Part shown: positions 848-18,761 of the stretch, one piece after another
Layout: each line of letters opens with the position of its first letter
Position numbering within the stretch: the stretch's first letter is position 1
Virus record (IMG/VR): IMGVR_UViG_3300006165_000050
Location: 1-21,874 of that record
DNA length: 21,874 nucleotides
Strand: one strand, 5' to 3'
Source of the DNA: a virus
Program-made: the position numbers and the translations under genes
Notes under the pieces: model-generated
Databases searched by the model: none
What the model was told of the DNA's origin: nothing
Seen by the model: the letters and a program-made list of their open reading frames with translations, nothing else

Positions 848-2137
848 TTAAGAAACATCTTTTAGTTCACCATAATTTTGACCTTTACTAATGCGTGTTG
901 GATATTTCATAGCATTTTTTATTTGCAAAATTAAATCTTTTTCTTCTATTTCATTAAAATCAAAAGTAAAGCTATCGTATGTATATAATATAAACCTTGT
1001 TTTATATTTTTCTATAACATTAAAAACTCTTTGCATTGCTTCGGAGTTTAATTCTGTTTCAGCCGATTGAATATAATAATTAAATAGCTTTTGTGGCGTC
1101 ATTTCACCTATAACAGATTGATTTACTTTTCTCTTATATAAATATGTTTTAAAATGTTTTTTATGTTGCCAGGATTTCCAAAATTTAAAAATAAAATCAT
1201 TTACCTTACTAAAAAATGGAATTGTTAAAAATTCTTTAGGAATTCCACCATATAATATTTGAAAACTAATTTGTTTAGCTTCAGAATATTCTTCTTTGGT
1301 TAGTGTTTCTTTTGAAAAGTATTGCTTTCCTAAATACTCATGTACTGAAGTATGTGGAAAAGTATAATCTACCATATCTGCTATTATTCTTAAATGATAT
1401 GCGTCGTAGTCTAATTCTAATATCGATCCACCATCAAACCTACTAATATATTTATTTCTAGTACCATCACGTTTATTTAGTGCTGCGTAGTTTACTTTAT
1501 TAAAGGTATTACTTGGTCTCCCTGTTATTGTGTAAGGATTATACTTACAGTATTCTGTTCCATTTTTAGTATATAGTCCTGCTGATTCTATTCTTTTTAA
1601 GTTTAATTGGTAATCTTTCATACTCTTATACCCAGAACAAAAGTTTATATTTTTAGATGCAATTATATTTTTTATTTTTTCTTCTATATTTTGGCAATAT
1701 TGTATGTGTTTATATATTGGAATTATCTTATTTACATCAGTTCTATCCCAATACATTGAATATAGTTTTGTATGAGCAGTAGTAAATTCTTTAGGTATAA
1801 TTTTTCCAATATTATAGTACATTAGGGAATTACAACAATACACATTTTTGAGGTTTAATATCGATGGTAAATCTTTAATATCATAAACATATTTTTTATA
1901 ATTGGTATTTATTGCGCGGGATATTTCTACAAGGGTAAAGTTTTTCATAGATTCAATATGGTCTATGGAAATGTAATAATTATGCATATTATTTAACGTT
2001 GAAATATAAATTCCTATAATACTTTGCTGTTCTGGGTGATGTAGGTGATCGCTGGCTATGGGTATGACTATTAAATCTGATTCCTTGCAGTTTTGTGCAA
2101 AGTCATTAAAGTCTAGTGTAGTTTCTATAATTTTCAT
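848..2137 (-). CDS. Compact, divergent family A (Pol I-like) DNA polymerase
   Basis: The C-terminal two thirds carry the family A polymerase motifs in order: TGRPS (205-209), motif A DYDAYHLRI with D243, motif B K288-x3-F292-x3-Y296-G, the Q-containing helix near Q356, and motif C YDS with D388. Both metal-binding aspartates and the K/F/Y spacing of the O helix are kept. Differences from E. coli Pol I are His248 at the Glu710 position, Tyr284 at the Arg754 position, and YDS instead of HDE in motif C. At 429 aa it is much shorter than Klenow (about 605 aa). The first 150 residues sit where a 3'-5' exonuclease would be, but no DxE motif is visible, so proofreading is probably absent. No Shine-Dalgarno sequence precedes the ATG, which suggests weak translation. 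Its place between virion genes is unusual. A function in replication or gap repair is inferred. Confidence 0.85.
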   Translation of the reverse strand: MKIIETTLDFNDFAQNCKESDLIVIPIASDHLHHPEQQSIIGIYISTLNNMHNYYISIDHIESMKNFTLVEISRAINTNYKKYVYDIKDLPSILNLKNVYCCNSLMYYNIGKIIPKEFTTAHTKLYSMYWDRTDVNKIIPIYKHIQYCQNIEEKIKNIIASKNINFCSGYKSMKDYQLNLKRIESAGLYTKNGTEYCKYNPYTITGRPSNTFNKVNYAALNKRDGTRNKYISRFDGGSILELDYDAYHLRIIADMVDYTFPHTSVHEYLGKQYFSKETLTKEEYSEAKQISFQILYGGIPKEFLTIPFFSKVNDFIFKFWKSWQHKKHFKTYLYKRKVNQSVIGEMTPQKLFNYYIQSAETELNSEAMQRVFNVIEKYKTRFILYTYDSFTFDFNEIEEKDLILQIKNAMKYPTRISKGQNYGELKDVS

Positions 2138-10639: not shown

Positions 10640-13600
10640 TTATGTTCTCGTTAAACCTTTAGCCATATGCATTACTTCACCTACTTTTTTACCATCCATG
10701 TTTATTACGCCAGGTTGTTGTATCACAGCTATTAGTTGATCTAGTTTTGCTATTATTTCAGTATTTCCACCACTATCTTTTGTACCAGCTGATTCTTTTG
10801 AACTTGATTCTTCTCCTCCACCACTACCCATTATCGAACCTAATCCACCCATTGCTCCAACAAGTGTACCAAGTAATAATAGAGTTGGCATTAAAGGCAT
10901 AAGGGCATATAGTGCCGGTACCATAAGTAATAATCCACCAGCAAATGCGGCAAAGCCGGCACCCATTAAGAACATTCCTTGTCCAGCTGCTGAAAGAGCA
11001 ACTAAAGCTGGCGCCATTTCAGCAAGTAATGGAGCTAATTGGCCAAGAACTGGAATCATACCTGAAACTGATGATAACGCTAGCAATCCAAAGGCTAGTG
11101 GTATAAGACTTGCACCAAGTAGAGCAAGGCCAGGACCTATAAGAAGTAAATTTCCTCCTGCACCGGCTAATTCTGCTAGGGCTGGACCTAATACGGCCAT
11201 GTGTTCTCCTAATACACCTAATAAAGGTATAAATGAAGCGGTCATTGCTAGTGCTAATAACCCATAAGAAAAGGGTATTAAACCTAAGCCAATCATTGCT
11301 AATGCTGGTCCTATAGCTAGTAGTCCTGCACCTGCTCCAGCTAATTGAGATAATGCTGGGCCTAATACTGTTAGATGTTCACCTAATACACCCAATAAAG
11401 GTATAAATGAACCAGTCATTGCAAGTGCTAATAATCCGTAAGAAAAGGGTATTAAACCCAATCCAATTAATGCTAAAGCAGGACCGATTGCCAATAGTCC
11501 GCCGCCTACAGCACCTAGTGCAGCTAAATTTGGAGCCAATTGAACCATTAATTCAGAAAATGCAATTGCAGTTCCTATAACTGGCGCCATTAAAAACATT
11601 GCAGCTGCAAATCCTAGTGTTCCTAATCCTAACATTGTCATACCAAAACCTGCAAGTGCTAATAGTGGAGCAACCATTGCAAGTTGTACTATTCCACCCA
11701 TTGTTCCTTCAACATCTACACCCTTTAACATACCTAGTGCACTTGCAAATGGTATAATTGCTAATCCTAATCCTGCAATTGCCAATGCTCCTAGGGCAAA
11801 AGCAGCTGCACCAACTCCAGACATCATTATAGATCCAATAACTAAAGCAGCAGCTGAAAGTACTATTATTGCTCCTGCCATGGCTATTATAGATCCAGCA
11901 TCTACTCCAGCTAAAAGACTAAATGCAAATGCTGCCGGTATAAGTGCTATTCCAAGAATACCCATTGCTAATGCACCTTGAATAACTTGTGAAGACATAT
12001 TTCCTATTAAAGCGGCCGCCATACCTAATATAATTAGTATACCGGATCCCATTGCTACACTACCCCAATTTATATCGTCGCCAAACTGTTGAGCAGCTTT
12101 TGCAAATACAAACATTGCAGCAGCTATTATTAGCATTCCTGCAGCGGCTTTTAATGCGGATTTTACGTTAAACCCTTTTCCAGGAGTTCCTCCACCCTTT
12201 GATGGTTTACTTTGTTTTTGTTTTTCTTTGGTAATCATTTTTTCTATACCTAAGTTACCAGTTAATGCAGCTCCTTGAGATATTAACTGTACCAGTGCTG
12301 CAGCTCCAGCAACAATAGTTGCAGCAATTTGTGCATTTTCTGCAGTTAGTATTGAATCATTATCTTTTAATATTTCTCCTGTCTGGTTGTAATGTTCTTT
12401 TTGAGCAGCAGTAAGACTTTCTAGTTTATCTGCACTTTGTAGCATTTTTGCTAAATCAGTTCTAGTCATTCCTACAGATTGAGCATATGCCTCTTGTTCT
12501 AAACGATTCATACGGGAGAAGTCTTCATAACTACCCATTTGTTTAACTAATTCTTTAGTCATACCAATAAGGTCATTATTTAATGCTAATTCTCTAGCCT
12601 TATTTAGGTTCATTGATCTGCCCGTCATAACTTGAGCATTCATTTCTGCCTCTATTGACGACTCTATGTTTAATAGTCCATCAGCTATACTAGCAATTTC
12701 TGACATAGACATACCTAATTTTTTAGCGGCAATTGCCGTCATTGTCATGGTTTTAAAACCTTTTTTACCTGCTGCAGCGAATTCTCCATAGTTATCGGCC
12801 ATTTCTTGAACAACTACACCAGGCGCAACCTTATTTGCTTTTGCAAGAGCAACCGTTTGTTCCATCATTGCATCTGCGGCCTCTTGGCTATGGCCGTTCA
12901 TACCTGCTAGTATTTTATTTAATTTTGCTGCTTGTCCGACCGCTATACCATATCTTGTTGACATAAAGACAACTGAATCAGTAATTTTACCTTGAACCTT
13001 TTCAGTTGCATAACCTAGTTTAAGTAATTCTCCTTGTGCAGCTGTAACGTCTTTTACACTTACACCCATCATTGAATATTTGGCAGCTGTTACAGTTGCC
13101 GAGGCTTGTAGTTTTGCAGAATTAGCATAACCAATACCTGTTTCTTGAGCAAAGTCTCTAGCGGCTTTGGCCATTTCAAATAATTTATTAACTATAAATG
13201 CAAATGCCGCTTGGCCGTTTGTAAATATTCCTATATATTTTTGAGCACCTTTTTTCATATCACCAAGGACCCCTTCTTGAGCCTTTAAGGTATCATTTTG
13301 TGTCATTAACCTATCACGTACACTTTCACCAGTTATTAAGGTCTTGTCCAGTTCTTCATTAAGTTCTACAGCTTTGTCGACCTGCTCGGTCATCATGATC
13401 TTTATTTCTTCTTGTGTTTTTGCTTGCTGGGTTAAAAGGTCTGCTAGTTCTACACCAGAAACGCCCTTAGCTTCCATAGCTGCTATTTCTGCAGCATGCT
13501 CTTCGTTCATTGAAACAAGTAAGCTTTCTTGCTCAGCAAATAAGTCTCCTAATTGGATAGATCCGCTCTGGAGCTCTTTCATCATATTAGATTCTATGCT

Positions 13601-13840
13601 GGCCAGGCTGGTTAAGGCTTTTGCAGTACCTAATCTTCCAGCATCAGCTGTTTCTCTAGCTTTTGCTGCAATTGCTGCTGATTGGTCATAACCAGCAATT
13701 TCCTTTGAAAAGATTTTATTTGATTTCTTTTCTTTAGTGATGCTTTTTTCAATACCTGATATTTTTTGCAATAGTGCCAGCTGCTCTTTTTGAAGAGCTG
13801 TCATTTGTTTTTGGTTATCTAAGTCTTTTTTTGAAGCCAC
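10640..13840 (-). CDS. Tail tape measure protein
   Basis: This 1066-aa protein lies in the standard place, after the tail-assembly chaperone pair. Residues 1-200 are heptad-rich coiled coil (LQKEQLALLQKISGIEKSI). Residues 240-490 hold a conserved-looking block with MSMSEIASIADGLLNIESSI, MTGRSMNLNKARELALNN and a GMTRTDLAKML segment, a pattern I associate with tape measures of large myoviruses. After a Gly/Lys linker (about 545-555), residues 560-1000 form many hydrophobic helices, including three 58-residue tandem repeats. The tail end (1010-1066) is polar with a Ser/Gly linker. In tailed phages the tape measure fills the tube lumen, sets tail length and leaves on infection. The start codon is GTG at 13838-13840, 11 nt after the previous stop, with a weak GGA upstream. 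T4 gp29 is 590 aa, so a longer tail is expected. Confidence 0.92.
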   Translation of the reverse strand: MASKKDLDNQKQMTALQKEQLALLQKISGIEKSITKEKKSNKIFSKEIAGYDQSAAIAAKARETADAGRLGTAKALTSLASIESNMMKELQSGSIQLGDLFAEQESLLVSMNEEHAAEIAAMEAKGVSGVELADLLTQQAKTQEEIKIMMTEQVDKAVELNEELDKTLITGESVRDRLMTQNDTLKAQEGVLGDMKKGAQKYIGIFTNGQAAFAFIVNKLFEMAKAARDFAQETGIGYANSAKLQASATVTAAKYSMMGVSVKDVTAAQGELLKLGYATEKVQGKITDSVVFMSTRYGIAVGQAAKLNKILAGMNGHSQEAADAMMEQTVALAKANKVAPGVVVQEMADNYGEFAAAGKKGFKTMTMTAIAAKKLGMSMSEIASIADGLLNIESSIEAEMNAQVMTGRSMNLNKARELALNNDLIGMTKELVKQMGSYEDFSRMNRLEQEAYAQSVGMTRTDLAKMLQSADKLESLTAAQKEHYNQTGEILKDNDSILTAENAQIAATIVAGAAALVQLISQGAALTGNLGIEKMITKEKQKQSKPSKGGGTPGKGFNVKSALKAAAGMLIIAAAMFVFAKAAQQFGDDINWGSVAMGSGILIILGMAAALIGNMSSQVIQGALAMGILGIALIPAAFAFSLLAGVDAGSIIAMAGAIIVLSAAALVIGSIMMSGVGAAAFALGALAIAGLGLAIIPFASALGMLKGVDVEGTMGGIVQLAMVAPLLALAGFGMTMLGLGTLGFAAAMFLMAPVIGTAIAFSELMVQLAPNLAALGAVGGGLLAIGPALALIGLGLIPFSYGLLALAMTGSFIPLLGVLGEHLTVLGPALSQLAGAGAGLLAIGPALAMIGLGLIPFSYGLLALAMTASFIPLLGVLGEHMAVLGPALAELAGAGGNLLLIGPGLALLGASLIPLAFGLLALSSVSGMIPVLGQLAPLLAEMAPALVALSAAGQGMFLMGAGFAAFAGGLLLMVPALYALMPLMPTLLLLGTLVGAMGGLGSIMGSGGGEESSSKESAGTKDSGGNTEIIAKLDQLIAVIQQPGVINMDGKKVGEVMHMAKGLTRT
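10976..11497 (-). repeat. Three tandem 174-bp (58-aa) repeats in the tape measure
   Basis: The unit begins at LLAIGPALALIGLGLIPFSY and ends near QLAGAGAG. Unit 1 covers 11324-11497, unit 2 covers 11150-11323 and unit 3 (more diverged) covers 10976-11149. Units 1 and 2 remain clearly similar as DNA, for example the shared TAAAGGTATAAATGAA stretches 174 bp apart on the plus strand. Residues are almost all hydrophobic or small. Confidence 0.88.
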
Positions 13841-13851
13841 CTGTTATTTTC

Positions 13852-14085
13852 CTATATTCTATCTAGATTATCTTGGTAGTCGTATTTTTTCATCCTATCT
13901 TTAAGATCGGCTAATGCCCCTTGTAAAACCTTATCTTTAGCTAACTTTTTCATAGCTCGCTTTTCTAGGGCCACACCCATTTTTTTAGTTAACCATGATA
14001 TTAGGTCAACAGCAATGTTGTCTTCTTTAAGTGTTTGTTTAATTTCCTTTCGGACAGCCTTTCTTACCTGTTTTTCATTGGTCAT
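13852..14085 (-). CDS. Small basic helical protein between chaperone and tape measure
   Basis: A 77-aa protein beginning MTNEKQVRKAVRKEIKQTL. I chose the ATG at 14083-14085 because AAAGGAG sits 7 nt upstream of it. An in-frame ATG nine codons earlier would place that ribosome binding site inside the gene. The protein is highly charged, rich in Lys and Arg and predicted almost fully helical, with one more hydrophobic helix in the middle (NIAVDLISWLTKKMGVALE). There is no signal peptide or known motif. It lies between the gp51-like frame and the tape measure gene, so it may help tape measure folding or tail assembly. That is inferred only from position. I do not recognise the family. Confidence 0.75.
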   Translation of the reverse strand: MTNEKQVRKAVRKEIKQTLKEDNIAVDLISWLTKKMGVALEKRAMKKLAKDKVLQGALADLKDRMKKYDYQDNLDRI

Positions 14086-14092
14086 GCTTGAT

Positions 14093-14099
14093 CTCCTTT
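14093..14099 (-). promoter_or_regulatory. Ribosome binding site that fixes the start of the 77-aa gene
   Basis: AAAGGAG on the coding strand, 7 nt before ATG at 14085. It is one of the best Shine-Dalgarno matches in the window and shows that the upstream in-frame ATG at 14112 is not the real start. Confidence 0.8.
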
Positions 14100-14111
14100 G
14101 ATTTTGATTCA

Positions 14112-14123
14112 TATATAAATATC
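14112..14123 (-). promoter_or_regulatory. Late-promoter-like motif GATATTTATATA before the 77-aa/tape measure genes
   Basis: An exact copy of the 12-base intergenic motif on the coding strand, ending 26 nt before the 77-aa gene start and lying between the gp51-like stop and the next ribosome binding site. If it is a promoter it would drive the 77-aa, tape measure and gp48-like genes. Confidence 0.45.
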
Positions 14124-14138: not shown

Positions 14139-14396
14139 TTATCTCCGTTTGGATCCTTTATTGGCCTTATCCATTTCTTCTTTTTCAGCTTTTTTGGCAT
14201 TAAGAAGTTTATCCCAATAAAATCGCCTAAGTGCTATTGGCATATCATATAGGTCAGACCATGTGAAACCCCCTTGGGAGTGATATGCCATCTCAAATAG
14301 CATGTTGTGCAGAATGGGCCTATATTCAGGCCCTAGGCCAAAAAAACTGAACGGACATTGGAAGAGTAATTTCTTGCTCATCTCCAGTTGATTCAC
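14139..14396 (-). CDS. gp51-like tail/baseplate assembly frame, probably made by frameshift from the gp26-like gene
   Basis: This open frame overlaps the end of the gp26-like gene by 71 nt in another frame. The meaningful part begins after the overlap: FGLGPEYRPILHNMLFEMAY, then GGFTWSDLYDMPIALRRFYW and a Lys/Glu-rich end. The G-F-[TS]-W-x-x-[LV]-Y-x-M-P-x-x-L-R-R-F-Y pattern is what I know from gp51-type hub-assembly proteins of T4 relatives. Independent initiation looks poor. The first candidate is GTG at 14396 with no ribosome binding site, and the next is ATG at 14381 with GGAG touching the start codon. A run of seven T followed by a hairpin in the overlap suggests a +1 or -2 ribosomal frameshift, which would join about 66 residues to the upstream protein. 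Order tube, frameshifted chaperone, tape measure matches the G/GT layout of phage lambda. Confidence 0.6.
   Translation of the reverse strand: MNQLEMSKKLLFQCPFSFFGLGPEYRPILHNMLFEMAYHSQGGFTWSDLYDMPIALRRFYWDKLLNAKKAEKEEMDKANKGSKRR
14316..14346 (-). promoter_or_regulatory. Candidate programmed frameshift site: seven T, spacer, hairpin
   Basis: Coding strand: CAG TTT TTT TGG in the gp26-like frame (T run at 14340-14346), a 6-nt spacer (14334-14339), then a perfect 6-bp stem GGGCCT/AGGCCC with a 6-nt loop (14316-14333). A competing stem, GGCCTA with TAGGCC, is also possible. The gp51-like frame is reached by +1 or -2 slippage of Phe-tRNA on the T run. A -1 slip reaches TAG after two codons. The GC-rich stem stands out in this AT-rich DNA. 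Confidence 0.6.
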
Positions 14397-15210
14397 TAAA
14401 ATAACTATATGTTAAGTCTATATCAGGAGAAATAGTTTCTATATGTTCTCTGAATGCTAAAGAATCTCTAGAAAGGAATTCATTTTCTACAAAATTTCTA
14501 ATTTTTATAGGATCATTGTCTCCATCTACAGATACTATCATTTTTTTAAGTCTAGTACTTAATTCTGGTCTTACACCAGCAAATCCACCTTTAAATGATT
14601 TTTTTTGCCTTTTTAACTCATCCTGTACAGATTGTTCGTCTCCATGGCAAAGTAATCTAAATTCAATAGTTCTTTTTGATGCAGGTAGCTGTAATGTAAA
14701 CTTATTTTCACCAGCCTCTAAACCTTCTATATTAAAATCTTTATATTCAAATTGAGTAAGATCTACTATTTCTTCTTGTTTATCTCCAGTATTTGGGTCT
14801 GTTAGTTCTACCTTATACTCTTTACCATAAGCAAGTATTCTAGCTGCAACCATTATTGCATTTTTATCACCTACCAATAAGTCATTATAATTTATTGGTG
14901 AAACTATTAATGAACGTAATAGTCTATCTATAACTGTTCCATTTTTTATTAAGTTTTGTGATGTAAGAATATCTTCTTCTTTTGCAGTCATATACTTTAC
15001 ATCTACTTTTCCTAATGCTAGTGCTGATCCTTGGGGATATAATATTCCCTTTGACGGTAACTCTATAGTTTCTGTTGGAAACTTATAATCTGATTCTTTT
15101 ATTTGTGGGTTTGATGCAGGTGTTTCACTGATTACTTTTTGCTTTAATTCATCATTACTTAATCTATCATTTCCTGGGTAATCTGAATCTACTACTTTTG
15201 ACTTTGCCAT
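14326..15210 (-). CDS. gp26-like tail/baseplate assembly protein (chaperone-type)
   Basis: This 294-aa protein begins MAKSKVVDSDYPGNDR. I place the start at 15208-15210 because AGGAG lies 7-8 nt upstream. An in-frame ATG 24 codons earlier lies in AT-rich leader sequence beside the terminator and lacks a binding site. Residues about 45-90 carry the hallmark of T4 gp26-family proteins: ETIELPSKGILYPQG, VDVKYMTAKEEDILTSQNLI and VIDRLLRSLI. The middle is a beta-rich domain (ITLPAS-like strands, FTLQLPASKRTIEFRLL). The C-terminal half is helical, with RLKKMIVSVDGD and SRDSLAFREHIE. It sits between the tube and tape measure genes, the usual place of tail-assembly chaperones, and its last codons contain the proposed frameshift site. 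The normal product would end VQFFWPRA. The shifted product would be about 356 aa. Confidence 0.75.
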   Translation of the reverse strand: MAKSKVVDSDYPGNDRLSNDELKQKVISETPASNPQIKESDYKFPTETIELPSKGILYPQGSALALGKVDVKYMTAKEEDILTSQNLIKNGTVIDRLLRSLIVSPINYNDLLVGDKNAIMVAARILAYGKEYKVELTDPNTGDKQEEIVDLTQFEYKDFNIEGLEAGENKFTLQLPASKRTIEFRLLCHGDEQSVQDELKRQKKSFKGGFAGVRPELSTRLKKMIVSVDGDNDPIKIRNFVENEFLSRDSLAFREHIETISPDIDLTYSYFSESTGDEQEITLPMSVQFFWPRA

Positions 15211-15333: not shown

Positions 15334-15825
15334 TTAGTATTGTAATATCCAGTAATCACATCTAATAGATACAGTTATTTCATTGACAGCTGCAGTTTGT
15401 GTCCAATCAATTGCTCCAAAATCTGCTCCTGTAATCATTGCACCTTTTCCTGTCCATTCTTCTACCTTATCACCTACAGGTCCAAGTACATTAATAGTTA
15501 TGTCTTTCTTATAGAAATCTGCATAACCATCTCTACCTGTTACTGATTCGTGGTGTAAACGTACCCATTCCATTACAGCTTGTGCACCTGATGGTACAAT
15601 TGGATCGTAAAGTACGATATCAATTGGATCCCATGTTGTTTTACCTTTAACATACCTTGAAACATTGATATGTTGTAATTCAACCTCTTCAGTCACTACC
15701 TTTGGTCTAGCTGCAGTCTTTATAAGGTATGCAGGTATTCCATCAATATAGAATATAAATCTGTTTTGTTGTTTAGGCTCAAAGGCCGTGAACATTATTT
15801 CACTTGGGTCTACTAAATTTGCCAT
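15334..15825 (-). CDS. gp19: Tail tube protein (gp19-like)
   Basis: This protein is 163 aa, the same length as T4 gp19. It begins MANLVDPSEIMFTAFEPKQQ, followed by NRFIFYIDGIPAYLIKTAARP, a segment typical of T4-type tube proteins in which the N-terminal strand leads into the tube barrel. Further support comes from VTEEVELQHINVSRYVKGK, WDPIDIVLYDPI, VMEWVRLHHE and ITINVLGPVGDKVEEW. The C-terminal strand ITVSIRCDYWILQY closes the barrel. Hexamers stack to form the inner channel of the tail. The start has GAGGAG 8 nt upstream. The gene follows the sheath gene by 53 bp, has its own copy of the AT motif directly before the ribosome binding site, and ends in a strong terminator. This is consistent with very high expression of the tube. 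Confidence 0.93.
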   Translation of the reverse strand: MANLVDPSEIMFTAFEPKQQNRFIFYIDGIPAYLIKTAARPKVVTEEVELQHINVSRYVKGKTTWDPIDIVLYDPIVPSGAQAVMEWVRLHHESVTGRDGYADFYKKDITINVLGPVGDKVEEWTGKGAMITGADFGAIDWTQTAAVNEITVSIRCDYWILQY

Positions 15826-15878: not shown

Positions 15879-18761
15879 CTATTCTTCAAATGATGCACCA
15901 GTTCTCATAATGTTGAAGTCAATAATAATGAATTCTGCAGCTTTTGCAGGCTGTAGGAATATTTCACCTTTCATTTGATTTCTATCTACTACGTCTGGTG
16001 TATTATTTGTTTCGTCCATTACAACTTTAAATGCATATAAACCTTGTTGTTGTTGTACGGTTTCTAAATAAGGGTTAACAATATTTAAGAATCTATTTCT
16101 TGTTGCTGTTGTATTTTGTTCAAATACAAGGTATTTTGTAGAAGAAGCAATAAACTTCTTAAGTTTTATTAACAATCTTCTAACGTTAATTCTATCTAAT
16201 GCAGACGGTTTAGTTTGTAGGGTTTTTTGGCCCCAAATACATACACCAACAGCAGGGAATACAGCTATAGGATTAACTTTACCTTCGTATAAGTCATCTC
16301 TTTCGCCATGTGTTAATCTTGTATAAACATCACTTACACTTCCTAGGCTTCCTCTATTTAATCCTGCAGGAGCGAACCAAGGGAATGCAACTCTATCATT
16401 ATAAGCAATTACACCAGGTACTACTACCGATGGCGGAACCCATATAAATCTATTAACAGTTGCGTCTAATATTTTTACCCATGGATAATATTGAGCTGCA
16501 TAGTTTGTATCATAGTTGTCTGCTTGAGATATTGCGGCTGATACTGCATCTCCATTTAACGAGTTAACTCCATCAAATACAAAGAAACAATCACCTCTAT
16601 CTTCACATACATCAATCGCTTTAGTTACGATGTTTGAAGCGTTTTGTGAAAGTATACCTGGCATAACAATAAGATTAATATCTATTTCATCAGGATTAGA
16701 TATTGTATCTAATGCCTTTTTATATGCAGTATATCCACTTGTTGTTGTACTTGCAAAACTAAATCCAAAGCTATTTCCAGATGAAAGATCTGATCCAAGA
16801 TTAACAGGTGTTGCTGGATTAACTCCATCATATCCTCCTTGTAGAGCTAGTGTAAATCTTTTAGCATTTAATGCAGAACCAGTATTTACTGTTGCACTAT
16901 TATGTACACATTGTTCTAGTGTAAATGTTTTATTCCAACCTATATTAGCAGTATCACTTAAAGGAGCAAGATAGTATTTCATTCCATTATTAAGTATGTC
17001 TTCGTTAAAATTAAAACCAAAATATGTTTTAGTATCTGTTGTTAAACTTCTAGAAGTTACTAACGCTGCAGCAGGGTATGCACCATATGTTGCTGCTTGG
17101 AATGGAGATAAATAACCTTCATGTCCAAATGGTATTAATCCTGGAGAGTATATTGCATTTCTTACTCTTTCGTCTACTTCAACTCTAATGAATTTTGAAA
17201 GGTTTTCATAATCACCTTTAACTACAAGTTTACTATCTGCACCGACTGCTTGGTAATATTTGTATTTATCACCGATACGTCTTGCAATATAGTTAGGTGA
17301 ATTAGGATCTAAATTACAATTTGCATATGATTCTAAAGCAACTACCTTAGTATCTGTATCATCGAATTTTCTAACTGTTATTGTAAAGCTTCCATATTCT
17401 TGTCCACTAACACTACCAGCAGCTTTAATAGCTACTATACTTACTTTGGCCATTGTGTTTGTATTATTACCATGAGATAATGTATGTACTTTAAATAATG
17501 GTTCGTTTGTTGCACCTCCAATAGTTTGAGAAACAACCCAAGGTGTACTTGCAGCAGAATAAGATTTACCAGATGTAGCACTATTTGTTCCTGTACCTGT
17601 AGCAGTTGAAGCTGCATTAAAGTCTACATCTTGAAGTGAGTGACTTGCGATTGTGAAACCATATCCACCACCGTTATTATCAACGTTTCCACCATAAGAT
17701 TGAGAATTAAATATTGAATAAACGTATGCTGATTTAACATATGTTTCTGTTCCAGTACCTACACCTGGTACGTATGCACCTGCAGCGACTGGTAATTGGT
17801 CTTCAAAGTAATTTGCATTAGATTTATCAAACGACCAAGTTGCAGCTACTGCACTATTCCATGTAAATGTTGCAACTCCGTTACCAGTTAAGGCATTACT
17901 TAAGTCTCCACTTCCTGTATCGGCTACACCGTCTTGGAAAGCGTTATTATATCCTACACTTGTATATACTGCTGGAGCTACAATTGCAGAACCTGTTTTA
18001 ATTACAAAAGAGTTTGCTGCAATTCCTTTTGCTACAGCAGTTAATGCTAAATTGGATCCTGAAACCGATGCGGCTATTAATCCATTAAGTACTGGTACTA
18101 AGTTTATTTCTGTCTTTAATAATAATGTAGATGCGTCAGAATCAGATCCTGTAGGATAATAAAATATAGGATTATTATCTGGTGTTTGATTTACACTACT
18201 TTCTGCGATAAATCTATAATTTACTCCACCAGCATTAATTTGAAATTCTGCTCCATCGCTAAATACAGTATCTCCTAAACCGGTTGCCAATTGACTCATA
18301 GAAATAGATGCGGTTGCTTGTGCACCTCCACCGACAGTACCATATGCTACTGATGTACATTGTTGATCATCATCATCAGCAGATGCGTGTAATACGGCTA
18401 ATAAATGTTTAGAATTTCCATTTACTGCAGCAGATTGAGATGAAAATGTAGTTGAACCTGATGCATATAAAAATACCTGATTTGAGATATTGTATCCATC
18501 TAATCCAAGAATCCTAACAATAGTCACAGCTCCTGCGCTTCTAATATATTCTTTTACTGTATACGGTACATAAGTACCTGCTGTACTACTTCCAAACTGT
18601 AATTCAAAATCACCCATTGAGCGAATCACTGTAGGTTGGAATGCTGGACCTATTTCAGTCCTTCCAATTATTACAGCGCCTATTTCGCCAATACCTGCTG
18701 GTAAAAATGAAAGGTCGTTTTCTTGTGTAAAAACACCTGGGCTAACAATTCTTTCGGCCAT
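15879..18761 (-). CDS. gp18: Tail sheath protein (gp18-like) with large inserted region
   Basis: Both ends match contractile sheath proteins. The N-terminus reads MAERIVSPGVFTQENDLSFL, then IGAVIIGRTEIGPAFQPTVI and AGAVTIVRILGLDGY (to residue 90). The C-terminal core includes NPIAVFPAVGVCIWGQKTL, INVRRLLIKLKKFIASSTKY, FLNIVNPYLETVQQQQGLY and EIFLQPAKAAEFIIIDFNIM. These form the conserved sheath core and the arms that link neighbouring subunits. At 960 aa the protein is about 300 longer than T4 gp18 (659 aa). The excess lies roughly at 100-480 and is rich in Ala, Gly, Ser, Thr and Asn, with beta-strand patterns such as FQINAGGVNYRFI and SGSNLALTAVAKGI. It is probably a surface domain on the outside of the tail. 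The start has AGAGGAG 9 nt upstream. Together with the tube gene it forms the likely most highly expressed unit. Confidence 0.95.
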   Translation of the reverse strand: MAERIVSPGVFTQENDLSFLPAGIGEIGAVIIGRTEIGPAFQPTVIRSMGDFELQFGSSTAGTYVPYTVKEYIRSAGAVTIVRILGLDGYNISNQVFLYASGSTTFSSQSAAVNGNSKHLLAVLHASADDDDQQCTSVAYGTVGGGAQATASISMSQLATGLGDTVFSDGAEFQINAGGVNYRFIAESSVNQTPDNNPIFYYPTGSDSDASTLLLKTEINLVPVLNGLIAASVSGSNLALTAVAKGIAANSFVIKTGSAIVAPAVYTSVGYNNAFQDGVADTGSGDLSNALTGNGVATFTWNSAVAATWSFDKSNANYFEDQLPVAAGAYVPGVGTGTETYVKSAYVYSIFNSQSYGGNVDNNGGGYGFTIASHSLQDVDFNAASTATGTGTNSATSGKSYSAASTPWVVSQTIGGATNEPLFKVHTLSHGNNTNTMAKVSIVAIKAAGSVSGQEYGSFTITVRKFDDTDTKVVALESYANCNLDPNSPNYIARRIGDKYKYYQAVGADSKLVVKGDYENLSKFIRVEVDERVRNAIYSPGLIPFGHEGYLSPFQAATYGAYPAAALVTSRSLTTDTKTYFGFNFNEDILNNGMKYYLAPLSDTANIGWNKTFTLEQCVHNSATVNTGSALNAKRFTLALQGGYDGVNPATPVNLGSDLSSGNSFGFSFASTTTSGYTAYKKALDTISNPDEIDINLIVMPGILSQNASNIVTKAIDVCEDRGDCFFVFDGVNSLNGDAVSAAISQADNYDTNYAAQYYPWVKILDATVNRFIWVPPSVVVPGVIAYNDRVAFPWFAPAGLNRGSLGSVSDVYTRLTHGERDDLYEGKVNPIAVFPAVGVCIWGQKTLQTKPSALDRINVRRLLIKLKKFIASSTKYLVFEQNTTATRNRFLNIVNPYLETVQQQQGLYAFKVVMDETNNTPDVVDRNQMKGEIFLQPAKAAEFIIIDFNIMRTGASFEE

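Follow-up and report, generated by a model that had tools for sequence, protein, structure and literature searches.

A putative +1 frameshift in the tail assembly chaperone gene of a T4-like virus and likely changes of frameshift direction among its relatives

Programmed frameshifting of the G/GT type is widespread in tail assembly chaperone genes and proceeds by -1, -2 or +1 slippage in different phages, with T4 as a stated exception (PMC5009743). In T4, gp26 and gp51 are listed as hub assembly chaperones, gp51 being required yet absent from the particle (PMC3004832), and the 'gp51' of cyanophages and KVP40 is known to match the C-terminus of T4 gp51 only (PMC3037559). According to two papers citing the study of Vladimirov et al. 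(2022), the latter identified the T4-like chaperones gp26 and gp51 as two forms; the same papers describe poly-T -1 signals and, for some T4-like phages, a short gene alongside a fused long one (PMC12846349, PMC10274946). Backward slips and the two-gene version are hence already known in T4-like phages. For forward slips, UUU_CGU in influenza A PA-X is a +1 site proven by mass spectrometry (PMC3498833), UUU_CGN is prevalent in amalgaviruses (PMC5052127), and TTT-CGC has been proposed as the slip site for halovirus tail chaperones (HF1; PMC7230728).

Here we analyzed a 21,874-nt stretch of viral DNA (IMG/VR record IMGVR_UViG_3300006165_000050), referred to in its whole length as the window. Its chaperone gene very probably uses a programmed +1 frameshift yielding a short (294 aa) and a long (356 aa) G/GT-like tail assembly chaperone.

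Layout of the chaperone locus

The gene of the short chaperone (TAC-N, gp26/PF12322 family) occupies positions 14326-15210 of the minus strand and encodes 294 aa, from ATG 15210 to the TGA at 14328-14326; an earlier sequence-only reading had assumed 318 aa from TTG 15282, which is corrected here. The product matches PF12322 (E 1.5e-8, above the curated cut-off) and phrog_150 (1.2e-10). As in loci of the G/GT type, the gene is located between a tail tube gene upstream (15334-15825, minus strand; phrog_4542, E 3.1e-24) and a tape-measure-like gene downstream (10640-13840, minus strand). The 1066-aa product of the latter had no family match in profile searches and is a probable tape measure protein by its size and position; a tape measure is annotated at the equivalent place in two relatives (L081 and L084). 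An AF2 model of the short form reached a pLDDT of 89, and a fold search with this model gave no significant match, including for the HK97 chaperone fold 2ob9_B (E 2.4, TM 0.48 by target length).

The zero frame of the minus strand ends with CAG TTT TTT TGG CCT AGG GCC TGA, in which seven Ts run from 14346 down to 14340. The overlapping frame is +1 (equivalent to -2) relative to the zero frame and is open through the T run and from 14339 to a stop at 14141-14139, whereby the C-terminal extension (TAC-C, 14139-14339, minus strand) comprises 66 codons and the stop. The -1 frame reads TTG GCC TAG from the run and stops after two codons. This geometry had been recognized in the sequence-only reading, as had the approximate length of the fusion: shifted-frame translation with a +1 slip gives an inferred long chaperone (TAC-NC, 14139-15210, minus strand) of 356 aa with the junction VQFF-GLGPEYR.

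In the mechanism that we propose, most ribosomes would stay in frame through TTT TTT TGG and terminate a few codons on, yielding the 294-aa TAC-N. In a fraction of them, tRNA-Phe paired with the second UUU in the P site would slip by +1 base to the overlapping UUU; GGC (Gly) would be decoded next, and reading of 66 codons would yield the 356-aa TAC-NC. If the two forms act like lambda gpG/gpGT, the tape measure would be coated by the short form, and tail tube subunits would be recruited by the C-terminal domain of the long form.

An 86-aa ORF with unassigned function (13852-14112, minus strand) separates the chaperone extension from the tape measure gene, and small ORFs are present at the same place in Microcystis phage Mel-JY01 and HTVC008M. 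Elsewhere in the window, the tail sheath protein (15879-18761, minus strand) is unusually long (960 aa), its recognised sheath domains being confined to the final ~280 residues, and a DNA polymerase family A region (848-2137, minus strand; 429 aa, PF00476 7.8e-10) follows the tail/baseplate genes directly downstream, on the strand that also carries these.

Slip site and downstream hairpin among relatives

We compared 197 distinct sites of the chaperone gene obtained by five scans of IMG/VR and GenBank phages, the site counts being those of sequences as found, irrespective of relatedness. Seven Ts followed by GG or AC were present in 165 of the 197 (TTTTTTTGG in 143, TTTTTTTAC in 22), and the remaining sites were TTTTTTCCC (n = 8), UUU_CGN or UUU_CAN (n = 14, Streptomyces phage BRock included), TTTCTTTGG (n = 5), TTCTTCTGG (n = 2) and three singletons. 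CUU_UGG occurs in five relatives, and most relatives devoid of the T7 run carry another slip signal matching the frame of their extension. The extension was in the +1 frame in the first 147 sites, with L080 and L107 as the only exceptions. The T run is not due to chance, T7 being conserved next to upstream synonymous codons that are free to vary (differences in mostly 40-75% of same-residue pairs). The zero variability seen at the two Phe codons in a variability scan is circular, as the loci had been chosen by that string.

The base preceding the six-T run is a T in only 1 of 137 cases, and an Asn/Asp codon before the run is AAC/GAC 42 times versus AAT once, whereas the same genes use AAT/GAT in 70-76%. 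Because a T at this position would build the -1 heptamer U_UUU_UUU, -1 slippage is apparently avoided at the run in the +1 lineage. In the window itself, a canonical -1 X_XXY_YYZ heptamer is absent, a G preceding the run.

Single-protein searches with SP-15 and L083 returned no new relatives, and alignment queries did find some. Cultured relatives include Mel-JY01, Flavobacterium phage immuto, Bacillus phage SP-15 and RM378. In three jumbo phages (LR756511, Munch and XacN1; L197, L199 and L201), the PF12322-like gene ends without an obvious slip site and the frame open downstream seems to be -1; an upstream slip, another signal or separate initiation may operate in these.

The stem GGGCCT/AGGCCC pointed out in the sequence-only reading is indeed found 6 nt past the T run (14316-14333, minus strand) as a hairpin of 6-7 bp, for which RNAfold gives a 7-bp stem with an AAUA loop at -12.1 kcal/mol and a z-score of only -1.1 versus shuffles. 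As folding z-scores are modest in general (about -1 to -2), the case for the hairpin is built on covariation and register counts and not on energy. Strong stems were present in ~34 of 147 loci, 4-6 nt past the run, compared with 2.5-4% in shuffles, and when 113 T7GG loci were scanned without selection, each of two overlapping registers was present at 19 loci, the median over all registers being 0. Among 18 sequences in the register of the window, largely chosen for their stem, 98.4% of cells were paired; in these stem-selected sequences, five of the seven pairs were changed on both sides, and the covariation score was reached by none of 500 shuffles. The residues encoded in the stem change along with it (GLGP..YRP, GLGL..YKP, GLAS..YRR), so that the RNA pairing, not the protein, seems to be kept. 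Since most relatives have no such stem, the hairpin is best described as a clade-limited accessory and not as a core signal, probably raising the efficiency of the slip in the clade of the window.

Direction of the slip in the lineage and in T4-like phages

The sequence-only reading had left the shift as either +1 or -2, and it is the relatives that refine this choice. In a sister clade (SP-15, Streptococcus phage GXN1 and several IMG/VR loci) and in BRock, UUU is kept and followed by C (CGU, CGA, CGC, CAU, CAC; 14 loci), UUU_CGN being present in the sister clade and absent from the slip site of the window, which has UUU_UGG instead. The codon before UUU_C drifts between TTT and TTC (TTC in L086, L089, L205, L211 and L213) and is CTG in BRock. 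With TTC or CTG first, a -2 slip would move tRNA-Phe onto UCU or UGU, while a +1 slip from UUU to UUC re-pairs perfectly; -2 is therefore excluded at these loci by simple re-pairing. Given a sister clade carrying UUU_CGN, a proven +1 site elsewhere (PMC3498833), and several members unable to re-pair at -2, we infer the direction to be +1, which is favoured over -2 for the whole lineage.

A -2 slip like that of phage Mu could also give the same fusion: tRNA-Phe would move back two bases in T7 and UUU would be reread, adding one extra Phe. This is the most serious of the alternatives, albeit an improbable one in view of the TTC TTT C and CTG TTT C relatives. Re-pairing at -2 is perfect inside the T7 clade, and the first Phe codon is invariably TTT in T7 loci, a constraint unneeded for a +1 slip at the second codon. 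The spacing of the hairpin likewise suits a backward shift, 3' hairpins at 6 nt being more typical of these, and the A-site codon UGG, which is neither a stop codon nor known as starved, speaks against +1. Furthermore, the sites of L084 (Listeria phage LIS04; TTTTTTAGT) and L083 (LR756508; TTTCTATTC) do not fit slippage on the second Phe codon; both would need, and would allow, a +1 slip on the first, and -2 is the better fit for L084. For Mel-JY01, the expected junction peptide is VNFFGLSNEYR under +1 and VNFFFGLSNEYR under -2.

With +1 as the preferred direction in the lineage of the window, the T4-like phages provide the other side of the comparison. Both T4 gp26 (8.8e-64) and T4 gp51 (3.9e-52) match PF12322, genes 26 and 51 being divergent in T4. 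A single PF12322 copy is present in each of P-SSM2, S-PM2, HTVC008M, Cr30, AS-yj, KVP40, phiM12, OLIVR5 and PhiW-14, and in these nine phages the gene end reads NNT TTT TT(C/T) near the stop, corresponding to a U_UUU_UUY heptamer, which occupies the codons used for the slip in the window lineage, with the extension in the -1 frame; RM378 has TCC TTT TTT TGG and a +1 extension. The extension of the window set is related to the -1 T4-like extension (hhalign P 9e-10), and the latter set to the C-terminus of T4 gp51 (P 1.4e-8); compared directly by hhalign, the window extension and T4 gp51 gave no significant match (0.5% probability), the link being made only via the -1 T4-like set. The 'gp51' ORF of P-SSM2 matches the end of phrog_150. 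The term gp51-like of the sequence-only reading holds for the C-terminal domain only, the downstream ORF being homologous to just the last ~50 residues of T4 gp51. From these matches, the T4 counterpart of the short form is gp26 and that of the long form is gp51 in its entirety, and ORFs annotated as 'gp51' or hypothetical protein would really be the tail end of a fusion. The window virus appears to belong to a distant T4-like lineage.

The tree splits the -1 from the +1 group with a support of 99, several branches being long. Nested in the +1 lineage, the clade of L080 and L107 (support 99) has lost T7 (TTC TTC TGG), and the preceding bases read A AAT TTC, the canonical -1 heptamer A_AAU_UUC. 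Their extension is in the -1 frame, is clearly the same domain (PEYKPIVHDAIFSLVYYSEGAFSFGDVYDMPIYLRKFYTDKL) and has no start before codon 36 (locus L080:2721-3700 for L080). Signal and frame have changed together in these two, indicating that this sublineage returned to -1. Overall, it is likely that the direction of the programmed frameshift changed at least twice in one homologous chaperone gene with the fusion kept, namely in the deep split between -1 (U_UUU_UUY, T4-like) and +1 (UUU_U or UUU_C, lineage of the window) and in the return to -1 (A_AAU_UUC, L080/L107), the slip signal being rebuilt for the new frame each time and the hairpin being recruited in parts of the +1 lineage.

The fused product and comparison with known systems

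Past the stop of the short gene, pN/pS among relatives was 0.19 in the +1 frame versus 1.74 and 1.20 in the other frames (226 pairs), which points to purifying selection on the extension in the +1 frame only. In 51 of 144 loci, the frame of the extension contains no ATG, GTG or TTG between the upstream stop and the 14th codon past the slip. A candidate start with a 4-nt Shine-Dalgarno core is present in 17 of 144 loci and missing in 127. In agreement with the sequence-only reading, neither candidate start of the downstream frame in the window, GTG 14396 and ATG 14381, has a properly spaced Shine-Dalgarno. With starts lacking at many loci and the Shine-Dalgarno mostly missing, independent initiation is unlikely. 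It is accordingly very doubtful that the extension is a separate gene, expressed without fusion from an internal start or by reinitiation after the stop of the short gene, even if the window has an in-frame GTG and ATG and several -1 T4-like phages have an ATG beside the stop and a separately annotated gp51: such a gene would leave the T7 conservation unexplained, frame and signal switched together in L080/L107, and T4 gp51 displays the fused form. Relatives without the run but with a good start and ribosome binding site were looked for and not found. Still less credible is RNA polymerase slippage, by which normal translation of an mRNA mixture would give the fusion; it draws on the homopolymer signal of the main group, but the run is fixed at seven bases, below the usual length range for such slippage, and the run is interrupted in relatives sharing this arrangement (TTTCTTTGG, TTCTTTCGT, CTGTTTCGC).

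Taken together, comparison among relatives shows that the fused reading is selected for and its frame signal conserved, and the proposal of a programmed +1/-2 shift in a PF12322 gene as G/GT equivalent is strongly supported. Along with published work, these results suggest that frameshifting occurs in most sampled lineages of the T4 protein family, the two-gene arrangement of T4 being the exception, and that the direction of the shift can change provided the fusion is made. UUU_U, UUU_C and CUU_U would constitute a natural series of bacterial +1 sites for studying forward ribosome slippage, including UUU_CGN, a motif described mainly in eukaryotic viruses.

The locus of the window shares with the G/GT type an overlapping out-of-frame extension and a conserved slip site. 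Lambda gpG/gpGT uses -1 (Xu, Hendrix, Duda 2004; PMC5009743), unlike the +1 of the window, and no sequence homology of the window chaperone to it was found in this analysis. The -2 type of phage Mu is permitted by the T7 of the window, but the relatives argue for +1. The RF2 (prfB) CUU_UGA +1 site has its P-site slip in common with the five CUU_UGG relatives, which are without its A-site stop. In the UUU_CGN systems (PA-X, amalgaviruses, HF1), tRNA-Phe shifts +1 from UUU, and the identical motif is found in the sister clade; the window differs by UUU_UGG after another UUU and by a downstream hairpin. The accessible literature contains no description of the +1 version, the slip-site series or the switches of direction, although the full text of Vladimirov et al. 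(2022) may mention +1; the +1 version and the switches are apparently new. That gp26 and gp51 are the G/GT equivalents of the lineage, as the sequence-only reading supposed, had already been published, going by the available account of that study (Vladimirov, Gautam, Davidson 2022, Virology 566:9-15), and the window shares with the T4-like gp26/gp51 described there the PF12322 family, the TAC-C domain and the proposed role. The papers citing it report poly-T -1 or two separate genes for T4-like phages, whereas the window has a +1 extension after T7GG, in a lineage that avoids completing a -1 heptamer with the base preceding the run.
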